IMG/VR virus record: IMGVR_UViG_3300046002_006149
Span: 1 to 28,596 of that record
From: a virus
Direction: 5' to 3' (one strand)
DNA length: 28,596 nucleotides
Of the stretch, positions 312 to 27,725 are shown in pieces. The translations under genes were made by a program, and so were the position numbers. The notes under the pieces were generated by a model. That model saw only the letters and a program-made list of their open reading frames with translations. It was not told the origin of the DNA and did no database searches. The number at the start of each line of letters is the position of its first letter. Position 1 is the stretch's first letter.

Positions 312-607
312 GTTCCAAAAAATACTTTTTTGGGTGGGGTAATATAAAAAAGGGTATTACCGAAATAATTAGAATTTACTCAGACAAACCATCATTTTTT
401 TCAAAAAAAAGAATTGAATCCGGTATTGCATTTATTATAGCACAATGGGGTATGGTTTTTTATCTTCTAAAAAAATATCCTGATTTAAGTATGACTGATA
501 TAATAATGTGGGCAACAATAGAGTTTGGAGTTTCAGGTTATATCCTTCACCAAATACAAAAAGAAAAAAAAGTAGAAAACTCTACCGAAGAAAATCAGGA
601 TAACTGA
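308..607 (+). CDS. Small two-helix membrane protein, holin-like in shape only
   Basis: This 99-residue protein has two hydrophobic segments, roughly residues 37-54 (IAFIIAQWGMVFYLL) and 62-80 (DIIMWATIEFGVSGYIL). They are separated by a short polar turn, with a basic N-terminus and a Lys/Glu-rich tail. The topology is that of a small inner-membrane protein and would suit a class II holin or a membrane-anchored assembly factor. No family signature is visible and no endolysin lies beside it, so lysis is only a guess. The start overlaps the upstream stop by 4 bases. Its last 13 bases overlap the end of the convergent bS21 gene. Confidence 0.7.
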   Translation: MSSKKYFFGWGNIKKGITEIIRIYSDKPSFFSKKRIESGIAFIIAQWGMVFYLLKKYPDLSMTDIIMWATIEFGVSGYILHQIQKEKKVENSTEENQDN

Positions 608-786
608 TTTCTTTTTTTCTGTAAATAAATAGCCTTGTTTACTTCACTTCTTTTCTTAACTGACTTCTTTGTAAATTCTTGTCTATCCCTTAATTGTTCC
701 GTTTGTTTTGTCTTGTACACTTTGAATTTATACTGCTTCAAAGCCTGTTCTAAAGAAGATGCGTTTTTTACTTTAATAATTATCAT
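595..786 (-). CDS. rpsU: Phage-encoded 30S ribosomal protein bS21
   Basis: This 63-residue, strongly basic protein has the bS21 layout: a short beta N-terminus (MIIIKVKNASSLEQALKQYK), a helical stretch containing TEQLRDRQEFTKKSVKKR, and a basic helical end (KAIYLQKKRNQ). The length matches Bacteroidetes bS21 (about 64 residues) rather than the 71 of E. coli. bS21 binds the 30S platform beside the 3' end of 16S rRNA. In Bacteroidia it is reported to help hide the anti-Shine-Dalgarno tail, with a tyrosine at position 54; a tyrosine lies exactly at residue 54 here. The gene stands alone, divergent from the capsid genes, with its own promoter-like sequence. bS21 is known from some other phage genomes, where it is proposed to bias host ribosomes toward phage mRNA. 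Confidence 0.88.
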   Translation of the reverse strand: MIIIKVKNASSLEQALKQYKFKVYKTKQTEQLRDRQEFTKKSVKKRSEVNKAIYLQKKRNQLS

Positions 787-804
787 ATTTTTTTTACATT
801 ATAC

Positions 805-812
805 TATAAATA
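805..812 (+). promoter_or_regulatory. Perfect T4 late-promoter octamer TATAAATA
   Basis: TATAAATA is the T4 late promoter -10 element recognised by gp55 with the gp33/gp45 machinery. Here it sits 78 bases upstream of the first gene of the prohead block (ATG at 891), on the coding strand, in a non-coding gap. A gp55-like sigma is encoded at 12798-13550. In an AT-rich genome one octamer can occur by chance, and the same bases may act as the bS21 promoter on the other strand. Confidence 0.45.
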
Positions 813-838
813 TACGGAAAAAAGTCATTTTTGACAAA
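806..838 (-). promoter_or_regulatory. Candidate Bacteroidetes-type promoter for bS21
   Basis: Read on the minus strand, TTTG (complement of 838-835) is followed 20 bases later by TATATTTAT (complement of 814-806). This resembles the Bacteroidetes primary sigma consensus TTTG-N19-TAnnTTTG, lacking only the last G. It ends 19 bases before the bS21 ATG. The same bases read TATAAATA on the plus strand, so the element could serve either direction. Confidence 0.4.
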
Positions 839-890
839 TTTCATTTTTAGACTTACATTTATGAAAAAATAAACATGAAAGACATGATTA

Positions 891-1340
891 ATGAAAAAAG
901 GAAAAACATCAAAACTAAACATTTTTGATGATGCAAAATGTTACTACGGTACGGTAGACTCAAAAAATTTCAAATCTATATACGTAGTATTACAAACATG
1001 GATAGAACCAATTACAGTAGATGAAAATTGGAATAGACTCGTAGGCGAGATAAAAAGACAAATTCAACATACATTATTAGAAGTAGTAGATACTCAAACA
1101 TTTGAAAGAAAACAAATTGTAGACTTAGATTTAAGAACAAGTGGAATACAAAAAAACAAGAAAAGCTTTATGAATTTAGAAATAACTTTATATGTTCATA
1201 ATAGTTTATTGGATTTCAAATCACCGATTTTAAGAGATAAAATTAAAAAGATTCTTAATAGTGTCTACTTAGATGACCTTAAAAATAACAAACATTTTAC
1301 TCTTAGCAAAACAAAAACTGAAGAATTCAAAGAAAGCTAA
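891..1340 (+). CDS. Hypothetical protein upstream of prohead protease
   Basis: This 149-residue protein is mixed alpha/beta with no membrane segment. It has a basic N-terminus (MKKGKTSKLNIF), a tryptophan-containing central part (LQTWIEPITVDENWNRL), a helix (GEIKRQIQHTLLEV), a beta-like stretch (FMNLEITLYVH) and a Lys-rich end. It sits immediately before gp21. In T4 this slot belongs to the small prohead-core proteins gp67 and gp68, but this protein is neither very short nor very acidic, so I do not assign it to them. Two ATGs at 875 and 884 are in another frame. Position suggests a role in head assembly; no function can be read from the sequence. Confidence 0.75.
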   Translation: MKKGKTSKLNIFDDAKCYYGTVDSKNFKSIYVVLQTWIEPITVDENWNRLVGEIKRQIQHTLLEVVDTQTFERKQIVDLDLRTSGIQKNKKSFMNLEITLYVHNSLLDFKSPILRDKIKKILNSVYLDDLKNNKHFTLSKTKTEEFKES

Positions 1341-1347
1341 TATTTAT
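1341..1347 (+). promoter_or_regulatory. TATTTAT element before gp21
   Basis: The sequence AATATTTAT starts right after the preceding gene and the element ends 14 bases before the gp21 ATG. It matches elements found before several other structural genes here. It may be a late-promoter or start-associated element; it has not been tested. Confidence 0.25.
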
Positions 1348-1361
1348 CTCTAAAAGAACTT

Positions 1362-2075
1362 ATGAAAATTTTAGGACCTAGCGATACAGGTAAAGGTATA
1401 TTAGTTGAGTGGGATGCAGGGATTATTAATCCTAACGAACCACGTAATCAAAGTATTATACGTGAATCTTACGGACAATTGGAACATTCTAAACCATTTG
1501 AATTTTATGCAACTCTTCAAAAATGGGGAGTTCCAAATAGAAACGGGAGAGTATATCCTGAAAAGATATTAAGAAGAGAATCAGAAAAATACCAAGACGC
1601 TATTAAACGTGGTATGTCTATTTCAGAATTAAATCACCCTGAGTCTTCTTTAATTGACCTTGATAGAGTATCTCACCTTATTACAGAGATGTGGTGGGAA
1701 GGTAATGTATTGATGGGTAAGATTAAATTATTAACCACGCCAGGTTTCCATGAAAGAGGTATTGTATCATCTAAGGGTGATGTTGCGGCTAACATGATGA
1801 GACAAGGTGTTACTATGGGGGTATCTTCTCGTGGTGTTGGTTCATTAGTTAAAAAAGGTGACCAAAACGAAGTTCAAGATGATTTTGAATTAATTTGTTT
1901 TGACCTTGTATCTTCACCATCTACACCTGGTGCTTATCTTTACTTGAATAAAGAAGATAGACCAAGATATGAAGAAAAATTATCAGAACACGATAATACT
2001 TCAGTAAGTAGTGGTGGCGGATTAGAGAAATCTGTTGACTTAATGAAAAGATTAACCGATTATTTAGGTAGATAA
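1362..2075 (+). CDS. 21: Prohead core scaffold protease, T4 gp21 family
   Basis: This 237-residue serine protease matches T4 gp21 (about 212 residues) in size and motif order. It cleaves scaffold and capsid precursors inside the prohead before DNA packaging. The likely catalytic residues are visible: His92 in ELNHPES, Ser155 or Ser156 in MGVSSRG, and an acidic site around Asp181 in ICFDLVSSPS. WGVPNRNGRVYP at residues 55-66 is also typical of the family. A Gly/Ser-rich segment (SVSSGGG) precedes a C-terminal helix, which could be removed by self-processing. The gene lies in the canonical order gp21-gp22-gp23, interrupted only by a small DUF4494-like gene. Candidate cleavage sites are seen in both downstream substrates. 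Confidence 0.95.
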   Translation: MKILGPSDTGKGILVEWDAGIINPNEPRNQSIIRESYGQLEHSKPFEFYATLQKWGVPNRNGRVYPEKILRRESEKYQDAIKRGMSISELNHPESSLIDLDRVSHLITEMWWEGNVLMGKIKLLTTPGFHERGIVSSKGDVAANMMRQGVTMGVSSRGVGSLVKKGDQNEVQDDFELICFDLVSSPSTPGAYLYLNKEDRPRYEEKLSEHDNTSVSSGGGLEKSVDLMKRLTDYLGR

Positions 2076-2445: not shown

Positions 2446-4050
2446 ATGAGTTTAGAAAAAAACGAAAATTTAGTAGAGAAGGCTTTATTACAAATGAAGA
2501 CAATCGAGGAAGCTATAAGTGAAAATGCAAAAGGAATACTTGCTTCTACTATGAAGGAAGAAATCAGTGAACTAGTAAAAGAGTCATTGTTTGGCTCAAA
2601 ATCTAAATCATCTTTACACGAACAAGAAGAAGAAGGCGACGAAGAAGAAGTAAGCGCAGACGATGAAATTAACGTTGACGATGTTAACGTTTCAGACGAC
2701 GGTGTTGAGATGGGTGACGTTGAAGCTCAGGTAGGTCCTGAAGGTGGTGAATTAGATATCACTATGATGGGTGCTGGAGCTGAAACTGATAATGAAGACG
2801 AATTACCACCTCTTGATATGACGGGTGCAAAACCTGGCGAAGTATTGAAAGTGTTTAAGGCGATGGGTGATGAAGATGGAATTATCGTTGTTAAAGATGA
2901 TAATAAAATCCACCTTACTGATAATAACACTGATACTGAATATTTTATCGATTTAGGTGATGATTCAGAAATGTCTATGGAAGAACCTATGGAAAATATG
3001 AATGAGAGTGTGATTTATGAATTAGTCTTCGAAGAGGATGAAAAAATGGGTAAACACGAAATGGAAGAAGAGGATTATAACTTAGAGGAAGAATTAGATG
3101 AGGAACTTGACGAAACAATTTATGAATTGGAAGTTAGTGAGTCTATGAAACCTGTTGGAATCGGATTCGGAAAAATGAAAAATGGTTTATCTAAATCATC
3201 TGTTAACAACAAAGGTTTCGATGAAGATATGGAAAATGGTTTGAAATCAGAGAAAAAAGGAAAAGGTCCTAAATTCAACTACGGTAAAATTAAACATGGT
3301 GTTACTGAAAACTACATGGAAGAAGATTACATGGAAGAAGGATGGATGGATGAAGAAATGATTGATGATATGAAAACTGAATCTGACTACATGGAAGGCG
3401 ACTACATGGAAGGCAACTACATGGAAGGCGACTACATGGAAGGCAACTACATGGAAGGTGACTACATGGAAGGCAACTACATGGAAGGTGACTACATGGA
3501 AGGTGACTACATGGAAGGTGATTGTATGGAAGGTGATTGTATGGAAGGTGATGAATTACCAGGTGAAACCACAGAAGCATCAAGAACTATGACTTACATG
3601 AGAAGAGCACAAAGAGACCGTGTTGCAGCACCAAGTCAATTAAGAAAAGAATCTGTTGTAAAAGAACTCGATTTATTAAAAGAAAAAAATGAAGAGTACA
3701 AAAAAGCTCTCGATTTCTTTAGAAATAAATTGAATGAAGTTGCAGTTTTCAATTCAAACTTGGCATATTCAACTAGATTGTTCACTGAACACTCAACAAC
3801 AAAACAAGAAAAAATAAACATCCTTAGAAGATTTGATAACGTTGAAACTATCAAAGAATCTAAATCACTTTACAAGGCGATTAAATCTGAACTTGAGGGA
3901 AGTAACAACAGTGACGTAGTTACTGAGTCTATCCAAAGACAAGTTGTTAAAACACCTTCAAATGGTTCAGCATCTAATTTGATTGAAAGTAAAACTTACG
4001 AAAATCCTCAATTCATGAGAATGAGAGATTTAATGGCAAAAATAAAATAA
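2446..4050 (+). CDS. 22: Prohead core scaffold protein, T4 gp22 family, with a pentapeptide repeat
   Basis: The gp22 scaffold fills the prohead and is degraded by gp21. I start at ATG 2446 (MSLEKNENLVEK); the frame is open up to a TTG at 2431 but the ATG is the better start. The protein is 534 residues, against about 269 for T4 gp22. A helical N-terminus is followed by a very acidic Glu/Asp/Met-rich region, then a tandem DYMEG/NYMEG array (residues 314-368). The conserved C-terminal domain lies at about residues 404-485: a coiled coil, then RNKLNEVAVFNSNLAYSTRL, FTEHSTTKQEKINILRRFD and ESKSLYKAIKSEL, the part typical of marine T4-like gp22. It sits directly before gp23, as expected. Confidence 0.9.
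   Translation: MSLEKNENLVEKALLQMKTIEEAISENAKGILASTMKEEISELVKESLFGSKSKSSLHEQEEEGDEEEVSADDEINVDDVNVSDDGVEMGDVEAQVGPEGGELDITMMGAGAETDNEDELPPLDMTGAKPGEVLKVFKAMGDEDGIIVVKDDNKIHLTDNNTDTEYFIDLGDDSEMSMEEPMENMNESVIYELVFEEDEKMGKHEMEEEDYNLEEELDEELDETIYELEVSESMKPVGIGFGKMKNGLSKSSVNNKGFDEDMENGLKSEKKGKGPKFNYGKIKHGVTENYMEEDYMEEGWMDEEMIDDMKTESDYMEGDYMEGNYMEGDYMEGNYMEGDYMEGNYMEGDYMEGDYMEGDCMEGDCMEGDELPGETTEASRTMTYMRRAQRDRVAAPSQLRKESVVKELDLLKEKNEEYKKALDFFRNKLNEVAVFNSNLAYSTRLFTEHSTTKQEKINILRRFDNVETIKESKSLYKAIKSELEGSNNSDVVTESIQRQVVKTPSNGSASNLIESKTYENPQFMRMRDLMAKIK
3385..3549 (+). repeat. Eleven in-frame 15-bp tandem repeats in gp22
   Basis: The unit GACTACATGGAAGGC encodes DYMEG and occurs 11 times without interruption. 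The order of first residues is D, D, N, D, N, D, N, D, D, D, D. Variation is limited to GAC/AAC in the first codon, TAC/TGT in the second (last two units, DCMEG) and GGC/GGT in the last. Units 2-7 form three 30-bp doublets (DYMEGNYMEG). Degenerate copies (NYMEE, DYMEE) precede the array at about 3310-3340, and a DELPG unit follows it. Confidence 0.95.
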
Positions 4051-4080: not shown

Positions 4081-5901
4081 ATGGGAGCATTATTAGAATC
4101 AGGTCTTGTTGGTAACATTGGTTTGAAACACCTTAAAGTTATCAAAGAAGATACTATTAACAAATGGGATAAATTAGGATTCCTAGATGGTCTTAAAGGA
4201 CACATTAAAGAGAACATGGCTCAATTATATGAGAACCAAGCATCTTACCTAATCAACGAAGCGGCTGCAACTGATAGCTCAGGTTCATTTGAAACTGTTG
4301 TTTTCCCAATTGTTAGACGTGTATTCTCTAAATTGTTGGCTAACGATTTAGTTTCTGTACAAGCAATGAACTTACCTATCGGTAAATTGTTCTACTTTGT
4401 ACCTAAAATCCAAGGTTATGACATGGGTCAAGACCCAACTAACGGTGGTAATCACATCCCACCAATCGGTGCTCAAAACGGTCCTGCAAACGTAAACACA
4501 GGATATGGTGCAAATGACAAAAACCTTTACGATAGATTTTATGAAGGTAATGAGCCATCTTTAGACCCTCCAGGATTGTTTGACTATTCTAAAGGAGCGT
4601 TCAGTGCGGTTACTACTTCAGCTGATACTGTTGTTTGGTCTTCAGGTCAACTTGTAACTTCAGCTTATACAGCTGGTGAGTACAGAAAAGTATTAATCAA
4701 AATGACAGGATTTACAGGCGCAGGTGCAGGTAAATTAATCGGTCCTGATGGTCAAGCTATGGATAACGAAGCATTCCTTTCAGGATTAGAAGTTTACGCA
4801 GTAGCAGGAGCTCCAAACATTAACGCAGCGTTCTCAGGATTAGGTTCTAGTCCATTATTATTTAGAGTTGTTACTCAAAAATATGGTAGCGGTATCGTAC
4901 AGTACGGTTCAACTTCAACATCATCTTTCCCTGGTTCTGCAGGTTCTTACGGTGGTAATGACGGAAGTTATGATAACATCTGTAACGCAGCTGGTGAAAT
5001 CTATTTAGAAGTTGATGCTCAAGTACCATGTGCTATCGGTGCAAACTCTATTGACGGTTACTCAGGTATTACTACAACTGTAACTGGTCCAGCTATCAGT
5101 CAGTTCACATGTAAATGGAGAGTTTACAAAGAATTAGAATTCGAAGACAGAATTGGTGAGGTTTCTTTTGACTTACAGTCAGTAACTGTATCTGTAACAG
5201 AAAGAAAACTAAGAGCACAATGGTCTCCTGAATTGGCACAAGACGTTTCTGCATTCCACAACATCGATGCTGAAGCTGAATTAACAGCTTTATTATCTGA
5301 GCAAGTGGCGGCAGAAATCGACCGTGAAATTTTACGTGACTTACGTAAAGGTGCGGCTTGGACATTACGTTGGGATTACAACGGATGGAAAAGAGGTACT
5401 ACAGCTAACCCATTAACTCAATACACTCAAAAAGATTGGAATCAAACTTTGATTACAGCAATCAACCAAATTTCAGCACAAATCCACAAATCTACATTAA
5501 GAGGTGGAGCTAACTGGATTGTTGTATCTTCTGAGATTTCTGCTATCTTTGACGATTTAGAATACTTCCACGTATCTAACGCGTCTCCTGAGCAAGACCA
5601 ATACAACATGGGTATTGAAAGAGTTGGTACATTAGCTGGTCGTTACCAAGTTTACCGTGACCCTTACTTCCCACCAAACACAGTGTTGTTAGGTCATAAA
5701 GGTACTTCATTGTTAGATACTGGTTACGTTTACGCACCATATGTACCTCTACAATTGACACCTACAATGTACAATCCATTCAACTTTACACCTATCAAAG
5801 GTATTATGACACGTTACGCTAAGAAAATGGTTAACAACCGTTTCTACGGACGTATCACAGTTGATGGAGTTAGAACATTTGACTTGAGAGAATTGAGATA
5901 A
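4081..5901 (+). CDS. 23: Major capsid protein, T4 gp23 family
   Basis: This 606-residue protein forms the hexamers of the capsid shell. The N-terminus (MGALLESGLVGNIGLKHLKV) and VFPIVRRVFSKLLANDLVS (about residues 73-91) are characteristic of gp23. So is QAMNLPIGKLFYFVPKIQG, as are the C-terminal stretches around WRVYKELEFEDRIGEVSF and RYAKKMVNNRFYGRITVDG. A gp21 processing site of the (L/I)xE type is visible at I58-N59-E60 followed by AAA, close to the E65/A66 site of T4. It is somewhat longer than T4 gp23 (521); the extra length is mostly in Gly/Ser/Asn-rich loops between about residues 130 and 320, a likely surface insertion. The start follows an A-rich leader with no Shine-Dalgarno, and a strong terminator follows the gene. 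Confidence 0.97.
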   Translation: MGALLESGLVGNIGLKHLKVIKEDTINKWDKLGFLDGLKGHIKENMAQLYENQASYLINEAAATDSSGSFETVVFPIVRRVFSKLLANDLVSVQAMNLPIGKLFYFVPKIQGYDMGQDPTNGGNHIPPIGAQNGPANVNTGYGANDKNLYDRFYEGNEPSLDPPGLFDYSKGAFSAVTTSADTVVWSSGQLVTSAYTAGEYRKVLIKMTGFTGAGAGKLIGPDGQAMDNEAFLSGLEVYAVAGAPNINAAFSGLGSSPLLFRVVTQKYGSGIVQYGSTSTSSFPGSAGSYGGNDGSYDNICNAAGEIYLEVDAQVPCAIGANSIDGYSGITTTVTGPAISQFTCKWRVYKELEFEDRIGEVSFDLQSVTVSVTERKLRAQWSPELAQDVSAFHNIDAEAELTALLSEQVAAEIDREILRDLRKGAAWTLRWDYNGWKRGTTANPLTQYTQKDWNQTLITAINQISAQIHKSTLRGGANWIVVSSEISAIFDDLEYFHVSNASPEQDQYNMGIERVGTLAGRYQVYRDPYFPPNTVLLGHKGTSLLDTGYVYAPYVPLQLTPTMYNPFNFTPIKGIMTRYAKKMVNNRFYGRITVDGVRTFDLRELR

Positions 5902-5971: not shown

Positions 5972-6682
5972 ATGAATAAAAATCTAAATGAGGCTACTTC
6001 TACTTCAGGTGATGCTAGAGGGAGTTATATAGGCCCATTACAACCAGGTATAAGATATTTTAAGAAAAATGTTATGGGTCCATTTACTGACCCTGTTTCT
6101 AAGTATAAAAGTCCTGATTTAGAATATGATTCTTATGATGGTAATATGGAAAGAACAAAAAAACAAATAGGTAAAGAAGAAAAAATTGCAAAAAAAATAT
6201 ACAACTATATTAAAAATCATCCAGAAACTACATCAAGTGATGAAGATGGTAATCCTATAAATCAGTTTCCTGATAAAAATAAAAAAATTGTACCAATAAA
6301 AGAATGGGTTGAGTTAGATAAGATTAATTTGAATGAAGATTTAGCTGTTTGGTTTGGTACAAAAAAGAAACCTAAGGGTTCTAAACAACCGAAAGGTCCA
6401 TGGGTTAATATTTGTCGTAAAGTTGATGGTAAACACCCCCCATGTGGTAGACCTGATACGTCAAAAGGTGCATACCCAAAATGTAGAGCTGCGGGGGTTG
6501 CAGGAAAAATGAGTGATTCAGCTAAAAAAGCCGCTTGTGCACAAAAAAGAAAGGCCGAGAAAAAAGACACTCAAACAGGAAAAGGTCAAAAACCCGTTAT
6601 GACTTCATACAAACCAAAAAAGAAAAGGACCCAAAATGAGTCCTTAGAAAAAATTATAAAAAATATTTTAAGTTCACTTTAA
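5972..6682 (+). CDS. Basic Cys-containing protein with a DUF5872-like C-terminal region
   Basis: The true start is ATG 5972 (MNKNLNEATS); the frame also runs up to a TTG at 5951 that overlaps the T tract of the terminator, which I reject. The protein has 236 residues. The N-terminal half is polar. The C-terminal half contains LAVWFGTKKKPKG, GPWVNICRKVDGKHPPCGRP and GAYPKCRAAGVAGKMSDSAK. This is the pattern of DUF5872-type phage proteins: conserved W, HPPCG and YPKC, then a Lys/Ala-rich basic helix. The cysteines could bind metal, but that is inference. It is the last plus-strand gene and overlaps the convergent gene end by 4 bases. It could be a virion- or DNA-binding protein; function unknown. 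Confidence 0.8.
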   Translation: MNKNLNEATSTSGDARGSYIGPLQPGIRYFKKNVMGPFTDPVSKYKSPDLEYDSYDGNMERTKKQIGKEEKIAKKIYNYIKNHPETTSSDEDGNPINQFPDKNKKIVPIKEWVELDKINLNEDLAVWFGTKKKPKGSKQPKGPWVNICRKVDGKHPPCGRPDTSKGAYPKCRAAGVAGKMSDSAKKAACAQKRKAEKKDTQTGKGQKPVMTSYKPKKKRTQNESLEKIIKNILSSL

Positions 6683-12412: not shown

Positions 12413-12781
12413 TTATAATTGGTAATTTTGACCTTTATTATTATCAACATCTTTTTGTATCAAAGACTGTAGAGTATCTTCATCCATATCGGAAAGACTG
12501 AAAGATTCTTCTTTGGAGTTGTTTGATTTTTCCCATATACTTGATTGTAATTTTGACAAAGTAAGTTTTTTCTCAATGGTATCATTAATTATTTTTTGCT
12601 GTTCTTTAATGATTGGACCAATAACTGTCATATCCTCAGCATCTTTCAATAATGCCAACATCTTATTTTGTATCCTAATAGCTGTTGCTCTTTGCTCAAC
12701 TAACTCATTGTAGATTTCCTGCATTAAACCTAATACGGAATCTTTATTAAGATTTATTTCTTTTTTTCTTGTGCGGTTCAT
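12413..12781 (-). CDS. Small helical hypothetical protein between sigma factor and structural genes
   Basis: This 122-residue, charged, mostly helical protein has a basic N-terminus (MNRTRKKEINLNKDS), a long helical middle (EIYNELVEQRATAIRIQNKM and KEQQKIINDTIEKKL) and an acidic Ser/Asp-rich end (SLSDMDEDTLQSL). Size, helical core and position before large structural genes would fit a small terminase subunit of the gp16 type, but no diagnostic motif supports this and no large terminase is in the window. It ends 2 bases before the 665-residue gene and starts 16 bases after the sigma gene ends. Confidence 0.7.
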   Translation of the reverse strand: MNRTRKKEINLNKDSVLGLMQEIYNELVEQRATAIRIQNKMLALLKDAEDMTVIGPIIKEQQKIINDTIEKKLTLSKLQSSIWEKSNNSKEESFSLSDMDEDTLQSLIQKDVDNNKGQNYQL

Positions 12782-12797: not shown

Positions 12798-13550
12798 TTA
12801 TTGATTATGTATTTTTTTAAGAGTTTCTAAATAAAGAGTCTTATATTTTTTTAAATAAGTTCTTATTTCTTTTGTACTTAAATTGGTCATTTCTCTTAAT
12901 GTTAATAACACAATATTCTTGTTAAATTTGTTATTATCATTACCTATAAAAATATTACCATAGTCATCGAATAATTCAATGAGTGCATAACCCAACTTAC
13001 TTTCGTTCTCCTGTAATTCATTACCCCCAACATATTTTTTCAGGTCAATCAAGAAAACATCAATAATTTTTTCAGCATCTATTTTTTCAAACTCTAAATA
13101 GTAGACCATATCCGGTCTATTTTCTAAAGTACCGGATATGTCCTCGTATGAAATTTTTCTATTCGTTTCTTTTTGGTCTTTTAAGATTTGACCCATCAAA
13201 TAATTTTTACATATAGTACCGAAGTAAGAATATGCTTTTTTATTCTTTGCTGGTTTGAATTTGTCAACTTTAGTCATTAGAAAAGAATGCGTATCCGTGT
13301 GAATATCGTTATAGTTCATATCTTTCCTATAAAGTTTATATCTTCTTATGATTGATTCAATCATCTTATCAAGAGGGTCTCTTAAAAATTCATTATAAAT
13401 AACTTCTTTTTCGTATTTTGTTTCAGCTATAATATAAGCCTTAACTGCCTCTTCCTCACGTACATCAAAGTAATTTGCCTTTTTTACTTTCTTTTCCGTC
13501 TTTTGCTCTTCGTATGTAACCTCAACAACAGTTCCAGACGATACAAACAT
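12798..13550 (-). CDS. 55: Late-transcription sigma factor, T4 gp55-like
   Basis: This 250-residue protein has a sigma region 2-like core at about residues 55-125. EFLRDPLDKMIESIIRRYKL is followed by HTDTHSFLMTKVDKFKPAKN and KAYSYFGTICKNYLMGQILK, the pattern of T4-type gp55 in environmental phages (core-polymerase binding and -10 recognition). The last 33 residues (LREMTNLSTKEIRTYLKKYK onward) look like a helix-turn-helix, as in sigma region 4, which classical T4 gp55 (185 residues) lacks. The N-terminal 50 residues are an extra Lys/Glu-rich extension. gp55 directs host RNA polymerase to late promoters TATAAATA. Its start overlaps the stop of the upstream glycosyltransferase gene by 1 base (TAATG). 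Confidence 0.82.
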   Translation of the reverse strand: MFVSSGTVVEVTYEEQKTEKKVKKANYFDVREEEAVKAYIIAETKYEKEVIYNEFLRDPLDKMIESIIRRYKLYRKDMNYNDIHTDTHSFLMTKVDKFKPAKNKKAYSYFGTICKNYLMGQILKDQKETNRKISYEDISGTLENRPDMVYYLEFEKIDAEKIIDVFLIDLKKYVGGNELQENESKLGYALIELFDDYGNIFIGNDNNKFNKNIVLLTLREMTNLSTKEIRTYLKKYKTLYLETLKKIHNQ

Positions 13551-14356
13551 TACGCTTCTTGTGCTTCGTATTTTATGTTTCTATCTGCAGTAAAGAAATG
13601 TTCTTTTTTTGCTGAGTCAATCCAAAATGCGATTTCATTGTCTGAAATTCTATTTTGACCATTTTTATAATTCCAAAAAATAGAACCTTCTCTAAAGTTC
13701 ATGTGTTTGTAACCAATTCTTGGGATAGTCATAATTTGAGCAGAATTGTATGTAAGACGAAGTAAAAACTCATAAACAAATGTCAGCTTAAAAGATGGTT
13801 TGAATCCACCATTATCTAAGAATGTTGATTTTTTTATAACCATACCACTCGTTTGAAAGTTTTGGTATTCCATTAAAACTTCATTTGTCAAATAACCAAT
13901 CTCAGAGTTCAAACTTGCTGCAAATGTTGCTTCATTTGTAAAACCAACAAACATACCTTTTTCGTCAGTATCAACAACTAATGCTAAAAATGCATCTACT
14001 TCTGGATACGCTTCAGAATATCTTTTTACATTCTTAAACCAAATTGTTGAGTACTCATCATCAAATTCTAAAATACTAACTAACTCGGATTTAGCGTTTT
14101 CAACACCAAGATTAATTTGAGATGAGAAATCCACTTTACCTGTGTTCTCAACAAAATTTACAGTTAGTCCACTATAGTCAAAACTTTGTAGTTTATTTTT
14201 TAATCCATCTTCATCTGAATGTACCACAACTAATTCGGTTGGTTGTACTTGTTGAATCTGTAAAGATTTAATTGCTCTTTCATAATACTCATCAAAATTT
14301 CTTTGTTTCGATGAGTTAATAGGTAAAATTACCGATACGTCTAATGTGTTTTCCAT
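13550..14356 (-). CDS. Glycosyltransferase family 2-like (GT-A fold)
   Basis: This 268-residue protein starts with the GT-A beta strand VSVILPINSSKQRNFDEYYE. It contains a helix for nucleotide-sugar binding (INLGVENAKSELVSILEFDD) whose LEFDDEYS (residues 96-103) takes the place of the metal-binding DxD motif. Later it has MVIKKSTFLDNGGFKPSFKL and a C-terminal acceptor region. GT2 enzymes transfer a sugar from a nucleotide diphosphate donor to a glycan, lipid or protein. There is no membrane segment, so it acts in the cytoplasm. It lies between a GT-B enzyme gene and the late sigma gene, at the downstream end of the sugar cluster. Donor and acceptor cannot be told. Confidence 0.8.
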   Translation of the reverse strand: MENTLDVSVILPINSSKQRNFDEYYERAIKSLQIQQVQPTELVVVHSDEDGLKNKLQSFDYSGLTVNFVENTGKVDFSSQINLGVENAKSELVSILEFDDEYSTIWFKNVKRYSEAYPEVDAFLALVVDTDEKGMFVGFTNEATFAASLNSEIGYLTNEVLMEYQNFQTSGMVIKKSTFLDNGGFKPSFKLTFVYEFLLRLTYNSAQIMTIPRIGYKHMNFREGSIFWNYKNGQNRISDNEIAFWIDSAKKEHFFTADRNIKYEAQEA

Positions 14357-14360
14357 AATA

Positions 14361-15428
14361 TTAATTTGTTTGTTCTGTTATATTCAATTTATCCAATTGT
14401 TCTTGGAATGCTTCAGCTCTTGAATTGAAAATATCATTAAATAAATCTAAAACACTACTTTCAAATTTTGATTTATTTTTAAACTCGTTAGAAGTAGTTA
14501 ACATGTTCTCATATAATTTTTCTGAGATATTATCCTCCAACCAATTTTGTACAAAGTTAGCTACAACGTCAACTATATCGTTTTCATTGTTTACCCATAC
14601 CCCATTTTCATCATTCATCCAAGTAGGTAACATATTTGGAACCTTACCAATTACCGGTGTTCCCGATGACATAGATTCTAATGGGAATGTACCAAATGAT
14701 GATTCGGCATCCACCCATACACTTAAAAACGACTCCTTCAAGAATTTAGAAAAGTCAGTCAATGAGATACCTCTCATGTCTCTAAATGTAATCCATCTAT
14801 ACTGAGGGTACTTCAAATAAAATGTTTTGATAATTTTAGCAGTAGCTCTTTGGTCTCTTGTGTGAATAGAGATAATTGGTTTAGAAGGTTTTTCTTTTTT
14901 ACTAAATGTTTCATCGATGTAAGGTTCAATTAAATCCACACTTACATTTTTCATAATTTCAGAAATATAATTTTTTTGAGTTTCTGAAGTTGTAATACAT
15001 TTATAAACGCCTAATTGAGACCATGTAACACCAGGTGCTAAAGTTTCTAACATATGGTCATATGCTTGACACAATACAATTTTACCACACGGTAAATTTT
15101 TAATTTGTTCCATTACGTGACCATACAATTCAGGAATAATAATTACATCTTCTGGTGAGATAGAAAGATTCTGACCATCAATTGCTTGATGGGGTAATTC
15201 CATGTACGATTCATTTAACCATGAAGAAACACCTTCATAATCTTTTGTTTCGTGAATAAGAATAGGATTATATCCATTTTCTTTCAATACGACCGCAAAA
15301 TCATAAATGTATTTTATCGAAGCTTTTGGGTTACCTTTTGTATCTTGCACTAAAAGGTAAATACGTGCCGTCTTGTCTTTTAATTTTTCAATTGAATTTT
15401 CAATTTTAACAATTTTTTCTAAGTCCAT
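14361..15428 (-). CDS. Glycosyltransferase, GT4-like (GT-B fold)
   Basis: This 355-residue, two-domain protein has an N-terminal half with IYLLVQDTKGNPKASIKYIY. The C-terminal half carries the donor-site hallmark AESSFGTFPLESMSSGTPVI at 241-260: Glu242 and Glu251 correspond to the E-x7/8-E pair, and G-T-P-V-I-G is the usual loop. It is close to the family's normal length of 350-400. It has no signal peptide or membrane helix, so it is cytoplasmic. It lies 4 bases upstream of the GT2 gene and 3 bases downstream of a small hypothetical gene. A role in glycosylating a phage product or host surface glycan is inferred from the cluster. Confidence 0.82.
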   Translation of the reverse strand: MDLEKIVKIENSIEKLKDKTARIYLLVQDTKGNPKASIKYIYDFAVVLKENGYNPILIHETKDYEGVSSWLNESYMELPHQAIDGQNLSISPEDVIIIPELYGHVMEQIKNLPCGKIVLCQAYDHMLETLAPGVTWSQLGVYKCITTSETQKNYISEIMKNVSVDLIEPYIDETFSKKEKPSKPIISIHTRDQRATAKIIKTFYLKYPQYRWITFRDMRGISLTDFSKFLKESFLSVWVDAESSFGTFPLESMSSGTPVIGKVPNMLPTWMNDENGVWVNNENDIVDVVANFVQNWLEDNISEKLYENMLTTSNEFKNKSKFESSVLDLFNDIFNSRAEAFQEQLDKLNITEQTN

Positions 15429-15431
15429 TTC

Positions 15432-15713
15432 TTAAAATTTTTTTATTATTTTATTTAATAGTAATGTATTAAAAGAAATTTTGAATGGTATAGACAATTC
15501 TTTTGCGCTGTGTAAGCCTAATGAATCATCAATTGATTCTCGTTCTGAAAGAACAATTTCCATTAATAACTTAAATGTTTCATATCTTGTAACACTTATT
15601 TGTTCATTTTCTGTTTCACCCGAAATAGGAATTAACTTAGAGTTAGCTAAACTAACTTGTGTTTCTAGTTCATCTACGTCGAAGTAATAATTTTCACCTA
15701 AAAATGGTATCAT
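15432..15713 (-). CDS. Small hypothetical protein beside PhoH and glycosyltransferase genes
   Basis: This 93-residue soluble protein (MIPFLGENYYFDVDELETQV at the start) has a helical middle (TRYETFKLLMEIVLSERESI) and a basic hydrophobic end (LLNKIIKKF). I recognise no family. It overlaps the stop of the HAD-like gene by 4 bases (ATGA-type coupling) and ends 3 bases before the GT4-like gene, so it is made with them. Its steady position in the operon supports a real gene. Confidence 0.7.
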   Translation of the reverse strand: MIPFLGENYYFDVDELETQVSLANSKLIPISGETENEQISVTRYETFKLLMEIVLSERESIDDSLGLHSAKELSIPFKISFNTLLLNKIIKKF

Positions 15714-16363
15714 AATTCTATATTATTTATTAATTCATCAAAATCTTTTAACGATTCGATTTTATGTTTAGTTTTTATTGATTTATTATAATCCGTTTCG
15801 TATTGAACTACAATAATGTTATCAGGGTGATTCTCAATCAAATCAGGGTTTGCCGTTAATAACACATCTATTTTTTCCCACATTTGGTCAATTGTTGTGG
15901 TGGAATAAAATTTAATGTTTTCTATTAGACAACCAAACTTTGATAGGAAGAATAAAGTTGCGGGTTTAGATTTACCAATTTCATCTGAAACTATATAGAT
16001 TTCATAGTTATCTCTATTTTTAGTATAAAACTCATTCAAATCATTAAATGAGTAAGTTTCACAAGAACCTGCATGACCAAAAAGTTGCATAGGAAAATCC
16101 TCAAACATGAAATCATATAACTCTTCATCAGACTTAAATGAAAAGTGATTTTTAAGGTCTAAAGAATCCACAGGTAATGTAATTTTATATTCAAAAGACT
16201 CTTCAACCTCATCTAAAGTTGTATTACCTGATAAATCCAACGAAAACGTTTGATTAGAATTTTCCGCCTCATAATTTTCAATCATATGTTTTTCATATAA
16301 TTGTTTGAATTTACCAATCGTGTCTCTTAAAACACCGTTAACCTCAATCCCTATTCTCTTCAT
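15710..16363 (-). CDS. HAD-like protein with degenerate catalytic motifs
   Basis: This 217-residue protein starts MKRIGIEVNGVLRDT, where HAD phosphatases and nucleotidases have (I)DxDGVLRDT. The nucleophile Asp is replaced by Glu7 and the general acid Asp by Asn9. Motif II appears intact at YIVSDEIGKSK (Ser126, Lys131/Lys133). Motif IV, usually DVLI(T/D)DNP, reads DVLLTANPDLIEN with its Asp gone. The fold is therefore probably HAD, but hydrolysis is doubtful; it may bind a phosphorylated ligand or protein. It overlaps the PhoH gene by 20 bases, so the two are coupled. Confidence is good for the HAD resemblance and low for function. Confidence 0.65.
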   Translation of the reverse strand: MKRIGIEVNGVLRDTIGKFKQLYEKHMIENYEAENSNQTFSLDLSGNTTLDEVEESFEYKITLPVDSLDLKNHFSFKSDEELYDFMFEDFPMQLFGHAGSCETYSFNDLNEFYTKNRDNYEIYIVSDEIGKSKPATLFFLSKFGCLIENIKFYSTTTIDQMWEKIDVLLTANPDLIENHPDNIIVVQYETDYNKSIKTKHKIESLKDFDELINNIEL

Positions 16364-17099
16364 CGTATTTTACTAAAATTTTACTAATTAATGGGTTTCT
16401 AACATTCTTAGCATTTCTAAAATCATAAACACCAATATCATCAATTCCACTAAACCTCTGTAAAGCGTCGTAAAGACCTGATTGTTTTTTATCTTTATAT
16501 CTGTCGGTTTGTTCTAAATCACCTGATATAAAGAACTTACTATTAAACCCTATTCTTGTCAATAGTAATTTCATTTGATTTGGGGTTGCATTTTGCGCCT
16601 CCTCAAAAATTAAAATAGAATTATCAATATTCATACCCCTCATATAAGCTAATGCAAATACCTCGATGATTTCTGAATCCTTAAGTTTTTCTCTTGCCTC
16701 TTTTCCGATAATTTTATTCAAAAGATAATATGACGGAAAGATATACGGGTCCAACTTTTCTTCTAAGTTACCGGGTAAAGAACCTAATTTTTCTTCGGCT
16801 TCTACTGCCGGTCTTACAATTATAAGTTTTTCATATGCGTTATTAGGGTCCATAAGTAAGTCAACCGCAGCTTTCATAGAGATATAACTTTTACCAACAC
16901 CTGCAGGTCCTGAACAAATTGTAATTTGATTATTCATCAGTAAATCATAATAATCTTTTTGATTGTCTGATAAAAACTTACTTTTTTGCTTTTTCTTTAT
17001 TACTGAGTTTATAAAATCTTTTTTTGAAAAAGATTTAGGAGTATTTAATTCTTCTGTTTGTGGTGATGGGGTTGTTGTTTTTTTTCTTGTTGTACGCAT
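16344..17099 (-). CDS. phoH: PhoH-like P-loop ATPase
   Basis: This 251-residue protein has a Walker A GPAGVGKS at 64-71, RPAVEAEEKLGSLPG at 96-110 and a Walker B-type ILIFEEAQNATPNQM at 162-176, followed by ISGDLEQTDR. These are the PhoH family marks. The N-terminal 30 residues are a basic, Thr-rich extension. PhoH is a very common auxiliary gene in marine T4-like phages; the family includes predicted RNA/DNA-directed ATPases, and its phage role is debated. Length matches phage PhoH proteins. The gene lies 3 bases downstream of the SDR gene at 17103-17921 and overlaps the HAD-like gene. Confidence 0.93.
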   Translation of the reverse strand: MRTTRKKTTTPSPQTEELNTPKSFSKKDFINSVIKKKQKSKFLSDNQKDYYDLLMNNQITICSGPAGVGKSYISMKAAVDLLMDPNNAYEKLIIVRPAVEAEEKLGSLPGNLEEKLDPYIFPSYYLLNKIIGKEAREKLKDSEIIEVFALAYMRGMNIDNSILIFEEAQNATPNQMKLLLTRIGFNSKFFISGDLEQTDRYKDKKQSGLYDALQRFSGIDDIGVYDFRNAKNVRNPLISKILVKYDEENRD

Positions 17100-17102
17100 A
17101 TT

Positions 17103-17921
17103 TTAGTTATATAATGTTTTAGAAAAATCTTTTAGTTCCTCAATTTGTTGTTTTAGTGTTGGGATTTCTATTTCGTGTGTGTAAGTACTACTGATACTTC
17201 TATCACACGAAATTTCAGTTTTTTTTGGAGTTACTTGAACATCTAAATCGTAAACTTCACTTATCAACTCAACTAGTTCTTTTTTAGAAACGGTATTAGA
17301 GTGAATATGTCTAGTGCCAACCCAAAATAAATTTCTTTCAATCATTTCTTTGCAAATTTTAGCAAACTGTAAACACGTTACACCATTCCAATAATGATTA
17401 GTAAATCCGAAAACTGTTTGACCTTTAACTGATTTAATCCACTCAATTAGAGACCTTGTTTGACCAACTTCTTCACCAATAATAGATGTTCTTATAACCG
17501 TACAATTTTTAGGTTCACCTAACGCTTTAGTCATACCATAAACATCATTAACATCATATTTATCATTTTCATTATACGAACCCTTATTACCGGTATAAAC
17601 ACAATCAGTAGTTGGGTGAATCATCTTAACTTCTAATCTTTCGCTGACGTTAGCTAACATCCTTGGAAAAACTGAGTTTATTTTTATTGCGTTTAAGTCA
17701 CCCAATTCATCAACTCTTGGTTTAATCGCTCCTGCACAATTTATTATGATGTCATTTTTTTTGATAGATAAATTTAATAACACACTTTCTATTTCATTTT
17801 CCGATGTGTTTGAACCATCAATTAAATTTCTACCAACTTTAATAACTTCATAATAATCTTTAAGATATGTTGATACATAATTACCTAACATACCATTACT
17901 TCCAAATACAAATACTTTCAT
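17103..17921 (-). CDS. NAD(P)-dependent sugar reductase, RmlD-like SDR
   Basis: This 272-residue extended SDR has the Rossmann motif GSNGMLG at 7-13, INCAGAIKP at 60-68, a TTDCVYTG strand with the active-site region at 104-111, and the catalytic pair Tyr128/Lys132 in VYGMTKALGE. This matches dTDP-4-dehydrorhamnose reductases (about 280-300 residues), which reduce the 4-keto group of a nucleotide sugar. The next gene upstream is an RmlC-like cupin, so the two could act in series on a 4-keto-6-deoxy sugar. Substrate is inferred and other 4-keto sugars are possible. Confidence 0.82.
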   Translation of the reverse strand: MKVFVFGSNGMLGNYVSTYLKDYYEVIKVGRNLIDGSNTSENEIESVLLNLSIKKNDIIINCAGAIKPRVDELGDLNAIKINSVFPRMLANVSERLEVKMIHPTTDCVYTGNKGSYNENDKYDVNDVYGMTKALGEPKNCTVIRTSIIGEEVGQTRSLIEWIKSVKGQTVFGFTNHYWNGVTCLQFAKICKEMIERNLFWVGTRHIHSNTVSKKELVELISEVYDLDVQVTPKKTEISCDRSISSTYTHEIEIPTLKQQIEELKDFSKTLYN

Positions 17922-17934
17922 AACTTAAATTTTT

Positions 17935-18354
17935 TTATCTATAATCTTCATCCCAAATGTTCCATTTATCATAATCTTCTCTAATATCATCACCTAAACT
18001 TTCTTCAAGTGTGGATGTTGAAAAAAAGATTATTTTTGTGTCATCCTCTAATGATTTAAACCCATTATAGTTACCCGGTGGAATCCATAAGATTTTAGGA
18101 GATTTATCACTAAGTACAAATTTTTGAACTTCATTTGTTTCCATATTTACCACACCAATAAGTGCCGAACCTGCAGTCACATAAACATATTTACCTTCTT
18201 TTTTGTGTCCGTGCCATGCTCTGATAAAACCTTGTCTATGGTTTTCCACTTGATAAAATCTTTTAACGTTTTGAAAATCAAAATCATTTACGAATCTTAC
18301 TGAACCTCTGTCATCAACGGCTAAACCACCATTAATTAATTTTGTTGTACTCAT
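17935..18354 (-). CDS. RmlC/WxcM-like sugar epimerase or isomerase (cupin)
   Basis: This 139-residue cupin has a short DDRGSVRFVNDF start, RAWHGHKKEGKYVYVTAGSA (beta strands with the His that in RmlC acts as base), ILWIPPGNYNGFKSL (cupin motif 2) and a C-terminal EDYDKWNIWDEDY. It is shorter than canonical RmlC (about 180) and closer to the WxcM/FdtA-type cupins that isomerise or epimerise dTDP-4-keto sugars. It sits between two SDR genes, with a 4-base overlap with the upstream one and 13 bases to the downstream one, so it is co-expressed. The exact reaction (3,5-epimerase or 3,4-keto-isomerase) cannot be settled from motifs. Confidence 0.78.
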   Translation of the reverse strand: MSTTKLINGGLAVDDRGSVRFVNDFDFQNVKRFYQVENHRQGFIRAWHGHKKEGKYVYVTAGSALIGVVNMETNEVQKFVLSDKSPKILWIPPGNYNGFKSLEDDTKIIFFSTSTLEESLGDDIREDYDKWNIWDEDYR

Positions 18355-19307
18355 ACAAATTCTTTATTTTCTTTTTTATTTTTTAAGAATGCACCATTGT
18401 GGTACACTTTATCTTCAGGGTTCATTACCCTACCTTCTTCAAACATTTTTACCATTCTTAAAACTTCTTCTTCAACAGTTACTTTTGGTTTGTATTCAAA
18501 AACTTCTAACGATTTTGAGTTATCAACCTTATAGTTTCTAGCGTCTTGGAAAGAGATTTCAGTATAATTGATTTTTGTATTAGGGATGATATCAACTATT
18601 CTTTCACCTAATTCTTTTATCAAAACATTTTCTTTCGCCAAAACAAAGATACCTGAATGTCTTTTATCACAGGCTTCTACAACATACTCGGCGATATCTT
18701 TAACTGCAATAATCGGTCTCCATTGTTCTCCTCCGTTAATTGTTATCTCACCATCTTTGATTGCCTTCATAGTTAATACATTAACAACCAAATCCATTCT
18801 TAATCTCGAATAAGTGTCACCTAATCCAAATACGGTACCCAATCTAAAAATTGTCCCGTTTCTTTGTTGGATGTACTTTTCAGCTGCTAACTTAGTTGAA
18901 GCATAAGATGATAATGGATTAGTTCCACTTTCTTCATTTAGTAAACCATCCTGAGCACCATAAACAGAACATGTGGACATAAATACCAAATGTTTACTTG
19001 GAGAAACTACCTCACAGAAGTTTTTGATTGATTGGAAATTAATCTCTTCAGTTAACTTATGGTCCACACTACATGCTGGGTCGCCTACTAATGCGGCCAT
19101 TAAAACTATCACGTCAAAATCGTTTGAAATTTCGTATAATTTTTCAGTGTCTCTTATATCACCGTAAATAAATTTCACGTCTTTCAAATATCGGTTCTCA
19201 TATAATAGATTATCGTAAACAGTAACATCAAACCCATCTCGGATTAAATAATCACAAGTCAATCCACCAATGTAACCTGACCCACCTACTACTAAAACTT
19301 TTTTCAT
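18351..19307 (-). CDS. NAD-dependent nucleotide-sugar epimerase/dehydratase (SDR)
   Basis: This 318-residue extended SDR has GGSGYIG at 8-14, an FMSTCSVYG strand at 109-117, the catalytic pair Tyr135/Lys139 in SSYASTKLAAEKYI, and a sugar-binding RP(I/V)xV-type segment (EQWRPIIAVKDIAEYV). The family includes UDP-glucose 4-epimerase and nucleotide-sugar 4,6-dehydratases; which one cannot be decided. I start at ATG 19307 (MKKVLVVGG), which leaves a 1-base gap to the upstream gene; ATG 19319 (MVNKMKK) is possible and would overlap it by 11. The C-terminus (VMNPEDKVYHNGAFLKNKKE) is an extension beyond the usual fold. It overlaps the RmlC-like gene by 4 bases. Confidence 0.82.
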   Translation of the reverse strand: MKKVLVVGGSGYIGGLTCDYLIRDGFDVTVYDNLLYENRYLKDVKFIYGDIRDTEKLYEISNDFDVIVLMAALVGDPACSVDHKLTEEINFQSIKNFCEVVSPSKHLVFMSTCSVYGAQDGLLNEESGTNPLSSYASTKLAAEKYIQQRNGTIFRLGTVFGLGDTYSRLRMDLVVNVLTMKAIKDGEITINGGEQWRPIIAVKDIAEYVVEACDKRHSGIFVLAKENVLIKELGERIVDIIPNTKINYTEISFQDARNYKVDNSKSLEVFEYKPKVTVEEEVLRMVKMFEEGRVMNPEDKVYHNGAFLKNKKENKEFV

Positions 19308-19308
19308 T

Positions 19309-19662
19309 TTATTTACCATATTTTTTTACCTCAGGATTAAAACCCGCAGATTCATCACCACCGTTTATTCTAGAAATTATACCGATTAATTTTTCATCAA
19401 TACATTTTTTTAATCTAGCTCTTTCTCTAACTAATTTAACGTCTTCGACAGATGCCCATGACTTGAATTCATTATCATCCTGTCTATCCATAACTTCGTC
19501 TTTTAGTTTATACAACTTGAAATTTACAATTGATAACCTATCAACCAATTCTCCCATGGATAATAGTGTTTCAAAAGAATTTTCAGGTAAATCGTAACTG
19601 TTGTCGTATTCTTTGATACTCTTTTCAATTATAGTATCGATAATTTCACTTAAGCTTCCCAT
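19309..19662 (-). CDS. Small helical protein with a GELVDRLSIVNFK motif
   Basis: This 117-residue protein is predicted mainly helical. SMGELVDRLSIVNFKLYKLK (about residues 35-54) is followed by a second helix rich in Arg/Lys (VRERARLKKCIDEKLIGII). A similar layout occurs in two other small genes of this cluster (20953-21147 and 21144-21407), suggesting one small family. From memory it is reminiscent of DUF4254-like proteins linked to polysaccharide loci, but I cannot confirm that. It overlaps the upstream aminotransferase-type gene by 13 bases. A structural or partner role for sugar enzymes is possible; function unknown. Confidence 0.7.
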   Translation of the reverse strand: MGSLSEIIDTIIEKSIKEYDNSYDLPENSFETLLSMGELVDRLSIVNFKLYKLKDEVMDRQDDNEFKSWASVEDVKLVRERARLKKCIDEKLIGIISRINGGDESAGFNPEVKKYGK

Positions 19663-20966
19663 TGTTTTAAAAATTCATCTACTTTGTTTATTATTGTTTC
19701 TATGTGTTCTTCAGTATTTACTTGTGAAACACCAATCATTAAAAATTTTTCTGTGATTTTGTCCGCATTTTCATGAGTACCATATGATTCCCATAAGTGT
19801 TTACTCTTTTGGTATGCTGGATGCCTCATTAGATTACCACCAAATAAAACTCTAGTTTCAATACCATTTCTTTTCAAATGGTCCACTAAATGTTTTCTAT
19901 TAAATGGTGCGTCATCAGGAATTAAAAATGGAAATGAAAACGGAGAAACCTCATCATCAATTTCCCAAACCTTAAAGTTATATTTTGATTTAGTAAAGTA
20001 GTCGTATAATTTACGATAATTACTTTTTCTTATTTCGCTAAACTCACCAATTCTATCAATTTGTTTTATCAACATCGCCGACTGAAGTTCCAAAGGTTTT
20101 AGATTATACCCCAAATATTCAAATTGGTAATTCACCATATAATCAGACGGTAAATCACAATTTTTTGTTAGTTTGTTGATAGGACAAAATAATTCAGGAT
20201 GTTCAGACCTAATACAACAATTAGGTGAAGAACAATATCTACCCCAATTTCTAAATCCTCTCATAGTTGCGTGTAACTCTTCGTCGTTAGTTACAATTCC
20301 ACCACCTTCACCCATTGTAATATGGTGTGCTACATAAAAACTGAACGTTGCCGCCTTACCATACGCTTGAATAGGTCTTTCATGGTAAAACGTACCATAT
20401 GAATCACAGTTATCAAAAAACACATGAATATTGTATTTTCTTGCAATATCCAATATTTCGTTAATTCTTGTTTTGAAACCTAAAGTGTGCGCAACAAAAA
20501 GACCTTTTATTTTATCGTCTGACTTAATTGCTTCTTCAAACAATTCAGGATTAAGATTTAGGTCTTCTAAATCGATATCTAAAAACACAGGTATTAGTCT
20601 ATTCTGTATAATTGGGTTAACTGTTGTTGGGAACCCACAAGAAAGTGTGATAATTTTATCACCATCTTCAAAATACAACTCTTTCGCTGCAGACATTAAA
20701 AGTAGATTTGCAGAACTACCCGCGTTACATAAAAGACCATAATTTCTATCTGATATTTTTGCTAACTTTCTTTCCGCTTCAACAGTAAATTTACCTGCTG
20801 ACCACCAATCAGAAAAAATGGCATCCAACATATTTGAATACTCTTCATTACCTAATACGGGTCCCGAATAACGTATTTTTTTTCGATTAGAGTCTTCTTC
20901 ATTTTTTTTATTTACCCACTCGGAAAATAAAACTTTTATTTGATTTTCAATATCAACCTTGTTCAT
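19650..20966 (-). CDS. DegT/RfbH-type 3-dehydrase (PLP enzyme with His instead of Lys)
   Basis: This 438-residue fold-type I PLP protein belongs to the DegT/DnrJ/EryC1/StrS group. The catalytic segment reads FYVAHHITMGEGGG (211-223). Where ordinary aminotransferases have the PLP lysine, this has His214, the mark of the RfbH/E1 (DdhC) and ColD 3-dehydrases that remove the C3 hydroxyl of a 4-keto-6-deoxy sugar. DNCDSYG (185-191) is the PLP pocket. A Cys-rich insert with five cysteines (Cys245, 250, 251, 261 and 270) follows and may hold the [2Fe-2S] cluster of E1-type enzymes, though its spacing differs. It points to a 3,6-dideoxy sugar. The gene overlaps its upstream neighbour by 14 bases and the downstream one by 13. 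Confidence 0.85.
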   Translation of the reverse strand: MNKVDIENQIKVLFSEWVNKKNEEDSNRKKIRYSGPVLGNEEYSNMLDAIFSDWWSAGKFTVEAERKLAKISDRNYGLLCNAGSSANLLLMSAAKELYFEDGDKIITLSCGFPTTVNPIIQNRLIPVFLDIDLEDLNLNPELFEEAIKSDDKIKGLFVAHTLGFKTRINEILDIARKYNIHVFFDNCDSYGTFYHERPIQAYGKAATFSFYVAHHITMGEGGGIVTNDEELHATMRGFRNWGRYCSSPNCCIRSEHPELFCPINKLTKNCDLPSDYMVNYQFEYLGYNLKPLELQSAMLIKQIDRIGEFSEIRKSNYRKLYDYFTKSKYNFKVWEIDDEVSPFSFPFLIPDDAPFNRKHLVDHLKRNGIETRVLFGGNLMRHPAYQKSKHLWESYGTHENADKITEKFLMIGVSQVNTEEHIETIINKVDEFLKQWEA

Positions 20967-21147
20967 TCTTAAAAAAATTATCTAATTGTTCAGTTAATTC
21001 GTATTCTCGGTTTATTAGTCTTTCACATTCTTTTGCTGAAACTTTTCTTTGCTCAACGGGTAAGGACTCGTCTCTTACAATTGAATTGTGTTTCATCCAT
21101 AATAACCACATTTCTGTTAGTTCTGAAATTAGTTCACTGAATTTCAT
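20953..21147 (-). CDS. Small helical hypothetical protein (second of three similar)
   Basis: This 64-residue protein is all-helical. MKFSELISELTEMWLLWMKH is a hydrophobic/Trp-rich first helix and ECERLINREYELTEQLDNFF is a charged second helix. The two-helix pattern, with S-E-L-I near the start of the first helix, parallels the proteins at 19309-19662 and 21144-21407. It overlaps both neighbours (14 bases with the RfbH-type gene, 4 with the 87-residue gene), so it is coupled to them. No function can be assigned. Confidence 0.65.
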   Translation of the reverse strand: MKFSELISELTEMWLLWMKHNSIVRDESLPVEQRKVSAKECERLINREYELTEQLDNFFKNEQG

Positions 21148-21407
21148 TTTTGATTGTGTTTGTGGATGTTATAAGTTTTGATTTTTTTCAAAACAATATT
21201 TTTTTCTTTACCTGTAACTACTTTGTCAATTTTATCATCCAAATAATTTGCAATGACTCCCCTGTTTTCATTAAGAGTCATCATATTATTTGTTAGTGTT
21301 ACATACTCCTCATCTGATATACCCTCAGAGTGTAGTTTTTCTCTTAGTGTGAAAATTTTAATATTTTCAATAACTAATTTGTCTATTAAATCGCCGATAC
21401 TATTCAT
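21144..21407 (-). CDS. Small helical hypothetical protein (third of three similar)
   Basis: This 87-residue protein begins MNSIGDLIDKLVIENIKIFT, very like the GELVDRLSIVNFK start of the 117-residue protein downstream. It continues with a Met/Asn-rich second helix (NNMMTLNENRGVIANYLDDK) and a basic tail. It overlaps the SDR gene upstream by 8 bases and the next small gene by 4. It probably folds as a helical hairpin. It may be a partner or chaperone of the adjacent sugar enzymes, but this is inference. Confidence 0.65.
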   Translation of the reverse strand: MNSIGDLIDKLVIENIKIFTLREKLHSEGISDEEYVTLTNNMMTLNENRGVIANYLDDKIDKVVTGKEKNIVLKKIKTYNIHKHNQK

Positions 21408-24618: not shown

Positions 24619-24623
24619 AACTT

Positions 24624-25418: not shown

Positions 25419-25420
25419 CT

Positions 25421-26197: not shown

Positions 26198-26200
26198 ATC

Positions 26201-26974: not shown

Positions 26975-26977
26975 AAA

Positions 26978-27724: not shown

Positions 27725-27725
27725 A

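Follow-up and report, generated by a model that had tools for sequence, protein, structure and literature searches.

bS21 is the ribosomal protein most often carried by phages, and we know of no proof of what they gain from it. At the locus described here, a phage whose genes show hardly any Shine-Dalgarno (SD) sequence encodes a bS21 of its own, standing alone on the reverse strand directly ahead of the prohead protease and capsid genes. The gene lies in the window, i.e. the whole stretch of 28,596 nucleotides that was analysed (IMG/VR record IMGVR_UViG_3300046002_006149), and it is the sole copy of bS21 in this 28.6-kb record. Such phages were already in the literature. Bacteroidetes phages of 293-331 kb have been described in which a reverse-strand bS21 is surrounded by genes for terminase, portal, protease and capsid (Chen et al, 2022; PMC9723584). 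In that study, 54 of 61 phage bS21 had Tyr54 and the remainder a different aromatic residue, this residue was tied to blocking of the anti-SD, and phage bS21 was found to be expressed with structural genes in lake metatranscriptomes. The late exchange of host bS21 for the phage protein in ribosomes, which the original prediction put forward, is likewise a hypothesis of Chen et al, and only its late expression is backed there, by metatranscriptomes of related phages. The pairing of bS21 with an SD-less phage, held to be little discussed, was in fact discussed by these authors and again by McNutt et al (2023; PMC9976891). The core of the finding is consequently not new, since the phage type, Tyr54, the anti-SD idea and late expression were all published in 2022. 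What is new here is modest: an upstream element of the type that precedes virion genes is common to the phage bS21 genes, and an SD is patchily distributed among them; a search of the main text by Chen et al found neither point.

Table 1. Features of the bS21 locus and of related genes in the window.
Feature	Coordinates	Strand	Remarks
Small convergent ORF, 99 aa	308..607	+	overlaps the bS21 3' end by 13 nt; present in 44/99 bS21 loci
bS21 coding sequence, 63 aa, Tyr54	595..786	-	ATG start, stop codon 595-597; PF01165 and 7JIL match
A-rich leader TAAAAAAAAT-ATG	787..796	-	no SD, duplex +0.6 kcal/mol
TATATTTATA promoter-like element of bS21	805..814	-	conserved, sense orientation, strand-specific
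Divergent neighbour, 149 aa	891..1340	+	in 99/99 bS21+protease loci
ATATTTAT element ahead of prohead protease	1340..1347	+	
Prohead protease, Peptidase_S77	1362..2075	+	PF03420, 84 bits; phrog_207
Major capsid protein Gp23	4081..5901	+	PF07068, 240 bits
Probable phage late sigma factor	12798..13550	-	family-wide Sigma70_r2/phrog_234 signal

The identity of the gene is well defined. Its product (MIIIKVKNASSLEQALKQYKFKVYKTKQTEQLRDRQEFTKKSVKKRSEVNKAIYLQKKRNQLS) matches the PF01165 profile at 32.6 bits (31.6 in a second search), against a curated cut-off of 27, and its best match in the PDB is the bS21 of F. johnsoniae (7jil_z, E 8.6e-11, residues 1-62 gap-free), followed by a Bacteroidetes-like bS21 (9i5v, E 4.6e-10). 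Both alignments run without gaps from residue 1 through 57 or beyond, so that Tyr54 of the phage protein corresponds to Tyr54 of F. johnsoniae. The latter stacks on A1534, and the Y54A replacement affects SD-bearing mRNAs (PMC9723584; PMC9976891), raising SD-dependent output in F. johnsoniae (PMC9976891). The predicted 63-residue Bacteroidetes-type bS21, with Tyr54 in the position of anti-SD contact, is thus upheld; of the span 595-850 assigned to it, the gene itself is confirmed with its 5' end at 786, the remainder up to 850 being intergenic. In every inspected phage sequence of the group the residue at this position is aromatic, namely Tyr, with His in three (L057, L064, L277) and Phe in one (L079).

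The rRNA-binding C-terminal half is conserved throughout the phage group and shares its conserved residues with F. johnsoniae bS21, whereas the N-terminal segment differs: Phe21, Val23, Tyr24, Lys27 and Gln28 of the phage protein stand against Arg, Phe, Asp, Gly and Thr of the host one, and these differences are kept in the whole group. The conserved core and Tyr54 suggest a like-for-like function, and bS21 is essential in F. johnsoniae, with a dedicated supply loop (PMC9976891). It is therefore possible, as a tentative explanation, that the phage merely tops up or repairs the pool of bS21 late in infection, preventing a shortage that would limit 30S assembly and leaving selectivity unchanged; an N-terminal segment consistently different in the phage clade would, however, be unneeded for a plain top-up. 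The five divergent positions match those named by Chen et al (PMC9723584), whose favoured reading is that the altered N-terminal part contacts mRNA, re-targeting ribosomes towards phage and away from host transcripts beyond what occlusion achieves. We consider this unlikely, since the divergence could also reflect drift or a means to outcompete host bS21 for its site, and the leaders of the phage genes, discussed below, also weigh against it.

The distribution of the gene shows that it is not a chance ORF: relatives of bS21 are encoded in 174 viral stretches according to one scan (202 in a second scan, with alignment), and each of the 99 loci that combine bS21 with the protease keeps the divergent neighbour. 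No isolate-level record closer than 55% was found in the phage collection. In a tree of only 64 columns that carries a long-branch warning, the phage bS21 group into a single clade, separate from the sampled host bS21 (support 100/99), which points to a gene that phages have kept for a long time. The same reverse-strand bS21, upstream element and divergent gene, the latter of 145-148 aa and about 105-110 nt from bS21, recur in distant phages (L398-L417). The gene has been dispensable at least once, because a close relative (L313, protease 86% identical) has the 149-aa gene and no bS21, either at the locus or in its 22-kb record; its interval 4380-4560 is also devoid of the 308-607 ORF, with ~87 nt left between the 149-aa gene and the gene upstream. 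Two records of the set are of a different kind. One IMG/VR contig (L397) carries a Chryseobacterium-like bS21 with His at position 54, same-strand neighbours and no phage-type element, and is possibly bacterial DNA within the viral set. The other, titled Limnohabitans (L165), holds a Flavobacterium-type rpsU with a strong SD, probably as the result of a binning error.

The surroundings of the gene are those of a T4-like phage with capsid genes next to bS21, as had been proposed, the Peptidase_S77 protease and Gp23 being recognised by their profiles (Table 1). As judged from its linkage, the divergent neighbour is probably what Chen et al named bS21_CN (fam498, a hypothetical gene linked to bS21 on the opposite strand; PMC9723584). 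Its predicted fold is weakly like that of phage neck and tail-terminator proteins, the model being good (pTM 0.82) and its PDB matches all above E 0.001. The scaffold-position gene (2446-4050, plus strand) contains an acidic repeat (MEGDYMEGNY...) at 3300-3590. On the minus strand, a long block (13550-28544) comprises genes that resemble, by eye, nucleotide-sugar and glycosyl-transfer enzymes (aminotransferase-, epimerase- and glycosyltransferase-like) and also, at 16344-17099, a PhoH-like ATPase. No TerL was recognised in the 28.6-kb window. The phages of Chen et al (clades a-e; PMC9723584) likewise have a reverse-strand, Bacteroidetes-type bS21 amid protease and capsid genes, with Tyr54 or another aromatic residue, a divergent hypothetical neighbour, PhoH-like and sugar-synthesis genes, and no essential difference was found in this comparison of features. 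From these features the window would belong to a freshwater-type Bacteroidetes bS21 phage of the same kind, all tested features matching, at a level above that of clade. A bS21 is also encoded by the Pelagibacter phage HTVC008M (Mizuno et al, 2019; PMC6375957), whose host is of another phylum and whose protein, here compared by presence, enters E. coli ribosomes as cited by Chen et al (PMC9723584).

The translation start of bS21 is the first of the two aspects in which the locus adds to the published picture. SD strength was measured as the energy with which the 16S tail AUCACCUCCUUUCU pairs to the 22 nt that precede the start codon. By this measure, -7 kcal/mol is attained in two of the window's 35 genes and -10 in one, and the other phage genes have an SD strength no better than that of shuffled sequence beyond noise; the claim that the genome has almost no SD holds in this sense, at about the shuffled level and without depletion. 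A depletion seemed to be present relative to the region 42-62 nt upstream, and was rejected because shuffles of the same composition pair equally or more weakly, which makes it an effect of composition. An SD-like site at 26978-27736 (-12.8) lies within upstream coding sequence and was taken as a coincidence. Ahead of the window bS21, A occupies positions -3, -6 and -13, and A-3/A-6/A-12/A-13 are positive determinants in F. johnsoniae (PMC6847099). No distinguishing feature of phage mRNA was found here on which the re-targeting proposed by Chen et al could act, the SD being close to shuffled sequence and the A-rich leader also host-favoured.

The host gene is organised in another way. The rpsU of F. 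johnsoniae bears an extended SD through which bS21 is autoregulated, the SD-bearing mRNA being translated well only by bS21-lacking ribosomes (McNutt et al, 2023; PMC9976891); the phage gene has no SD and a virion-type upstream element. Among rpsU genes labelled as Flavobacteriales, 18 of 21 have an SD of -16.8 kcal/mol or stronger, the three exceptions without a strong SD being two Weeksellaceae and one unclassified member of the order, and in the sampled Bacteroidales the presence of an SD is mixed. The extended SD of about -14 to -21 kcal/mol, by which autoregulated Flavobacteriales rpsU were defined, is absent before the window bS21. Most of its phage relatives similarly have no SD or only remnants. 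Two phage lineages (L203 (G002), L299, L304 and L305) nevertheless carry AAAAGGAGG before bS21 (-12.2), which in one of them is the strongest SD among 158 scored genes, just as host rpsU stands alone, and the 735-kb phage LR756501 has a bS21 SD of -12.1. An SD-less leader is thus not required for phage bS21. The SD-bearing phage proteins form one clade (99/93), yet fall in two places in the protease tree, which suggests that the bS21 gene may have moved between phages together with its leader.

The second aspect concerns timing. The promoter-like sequence predicted on the bS21 side of the divergent region corresponds to TATATTTATA, and ATATTTAT or a one-letter variant is found 22-28 nt ahead of 42/42 distinct phage bS21 starts. 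Over 299 sequences taken upstream of genes in the group, ATATTTAT is the top 8-mer by strand bias, with 92 sense and 3 antisense occurrences, these counts not being independent as the regions come from related sequences. In a 292-kb relative it is present in the tested interval of 29/321 genes, whereas the antisense form is seen in 3 and shuffles give 4.2. Among the genes sampled there that bear the element, those with a PHROG function include tail tube, baseplate wedge and one transcription regulator, and sampled control genes include helicase, UvsX, endolysin and peptidase. Window genes that have the element, or its form relaxed by one letter, ahead of them are bS21, the protease, the scaffold-position gene, 5972-6682 and 12413-12781, amounting to 5/15 genes against 0/21 of the sugar/glycosyl block (Fisher p 0.008), the tight packing of which lowers the chance of a promoter by itself. 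The bS21 element differs by one letter from TAHHTTTG, the -7 box of Bacteroidetes (PMC6847099). The original prediction suggested that bS21 might be timed apart from the capsid genes. Against this speak the element that bS21 has in common with the protease and tail genes and the co-expression with structural genes reported by Chen et al; bS21 probably shares the late timing of the capsid genes, and a shared late promoter is the simplest reading of the common element, one that fits these expression data.

Late transcription in T4 relies on the gp55 sigma factor and the late promoter TATAAATA. The window phage resembles T4 in being T4-like, in having a probable late sigma factor and in the short AT-rich element before virion genes; it differs in that its sense element is ATATTTAT. 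At 805 the plus strand reads TATAAATA, which was considered as a late promoter of T4 type serving the capsid side and rejected because of the antisense bias of this motif in the 299 upstream regions (5 sense against 41 antisense), ATATTTAT being the sense form. The product of 12798-13550 is probably the late sigma factor and a candidate for reading ATATTTAT. Its family, present in at least 596 viral stretches, shows Sigma70_r2 in 28/30 members (best E 8.7e-4), 27/30 match phrog_234, a late sigma factor (best E 9.3e-4), and the Foldseek list consists mostly of sigma factors, none below E 0.001. This family-wide signal is consistent, and weak for any single sequence: the search with the window protein alone gave no PDB match and nothing at E 0.01 in Pfam or PHROGs. 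The position among virion genes and the virion-type element would also suit a bS21 that acts off the ribosome, for instance packaged in the virion, a possibility raised by Chen et al (PMC9723584), or bound to phage RNA. We hold this to be very improbable, given that the rRNA-binding C-terminal half is retained in the group, as expected of a ribosome-bound protein.

The reading that we favour, and regard as fairly probable, is that of a working Bacteroidetes-type bS21 that is made late, replaces host bS21 and keeps the anti-SD occluded, outside the host feedback. The phage would make bS21 late, alongside the virion proteins, using for it a separate promoter on the opposite strand. Phage bS21 would then replace host bS21 on the 30S subunit, mostly on newly made or bS21-deficient subunits, and its conserved C-terminal helix and Tyr54 would keep the 3' tail of the 16S rRNA tucked away. 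With the tail occluded, ribosomes would stay in the SD-independent mode that is needed by SD-less phage mRNAs, and the host loop should have no hold on translation of the window bS21, which has no SD. Incorporation into ribosomes, occlusion, escape from feedback and preference for phage mRNAs are here what we infer, and strengthening of the occlusion, as the original prediction had offered, is not supported. The argument of feedback escape has no object if the rpsU of the host is without an SD, as in Weeksellaceae and many Bacteroidales of the sample.

From the published loop and the retained Tyr54, it can also be hypothesised that phage bS21 turns the feedback on the host. Produced late in infection from a message without an SD, the protein would fill bS21-lacking ribosomes, hide the anti-SD and shut off the SD-dependent rpsU, its own mRNA remaining translatable; host bS21 would dwindle and new 30S subunits would carry the phage version. 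We regard this extension as doubtful. If it is true, the lineages that kept or regained AAAAGGAGG on bS21 would be under the same loop and offer a natural comparison. In Bacteroidetes, bS21 controls whether the ribosome can read an SD, and a strong SD is usually found on the gene for bS21 itself. With some bS21 genes of this phage group bearing the SD and most lacking it, it becomes testable whether phage bS21 represses host rpsU and itself escapes the loop.
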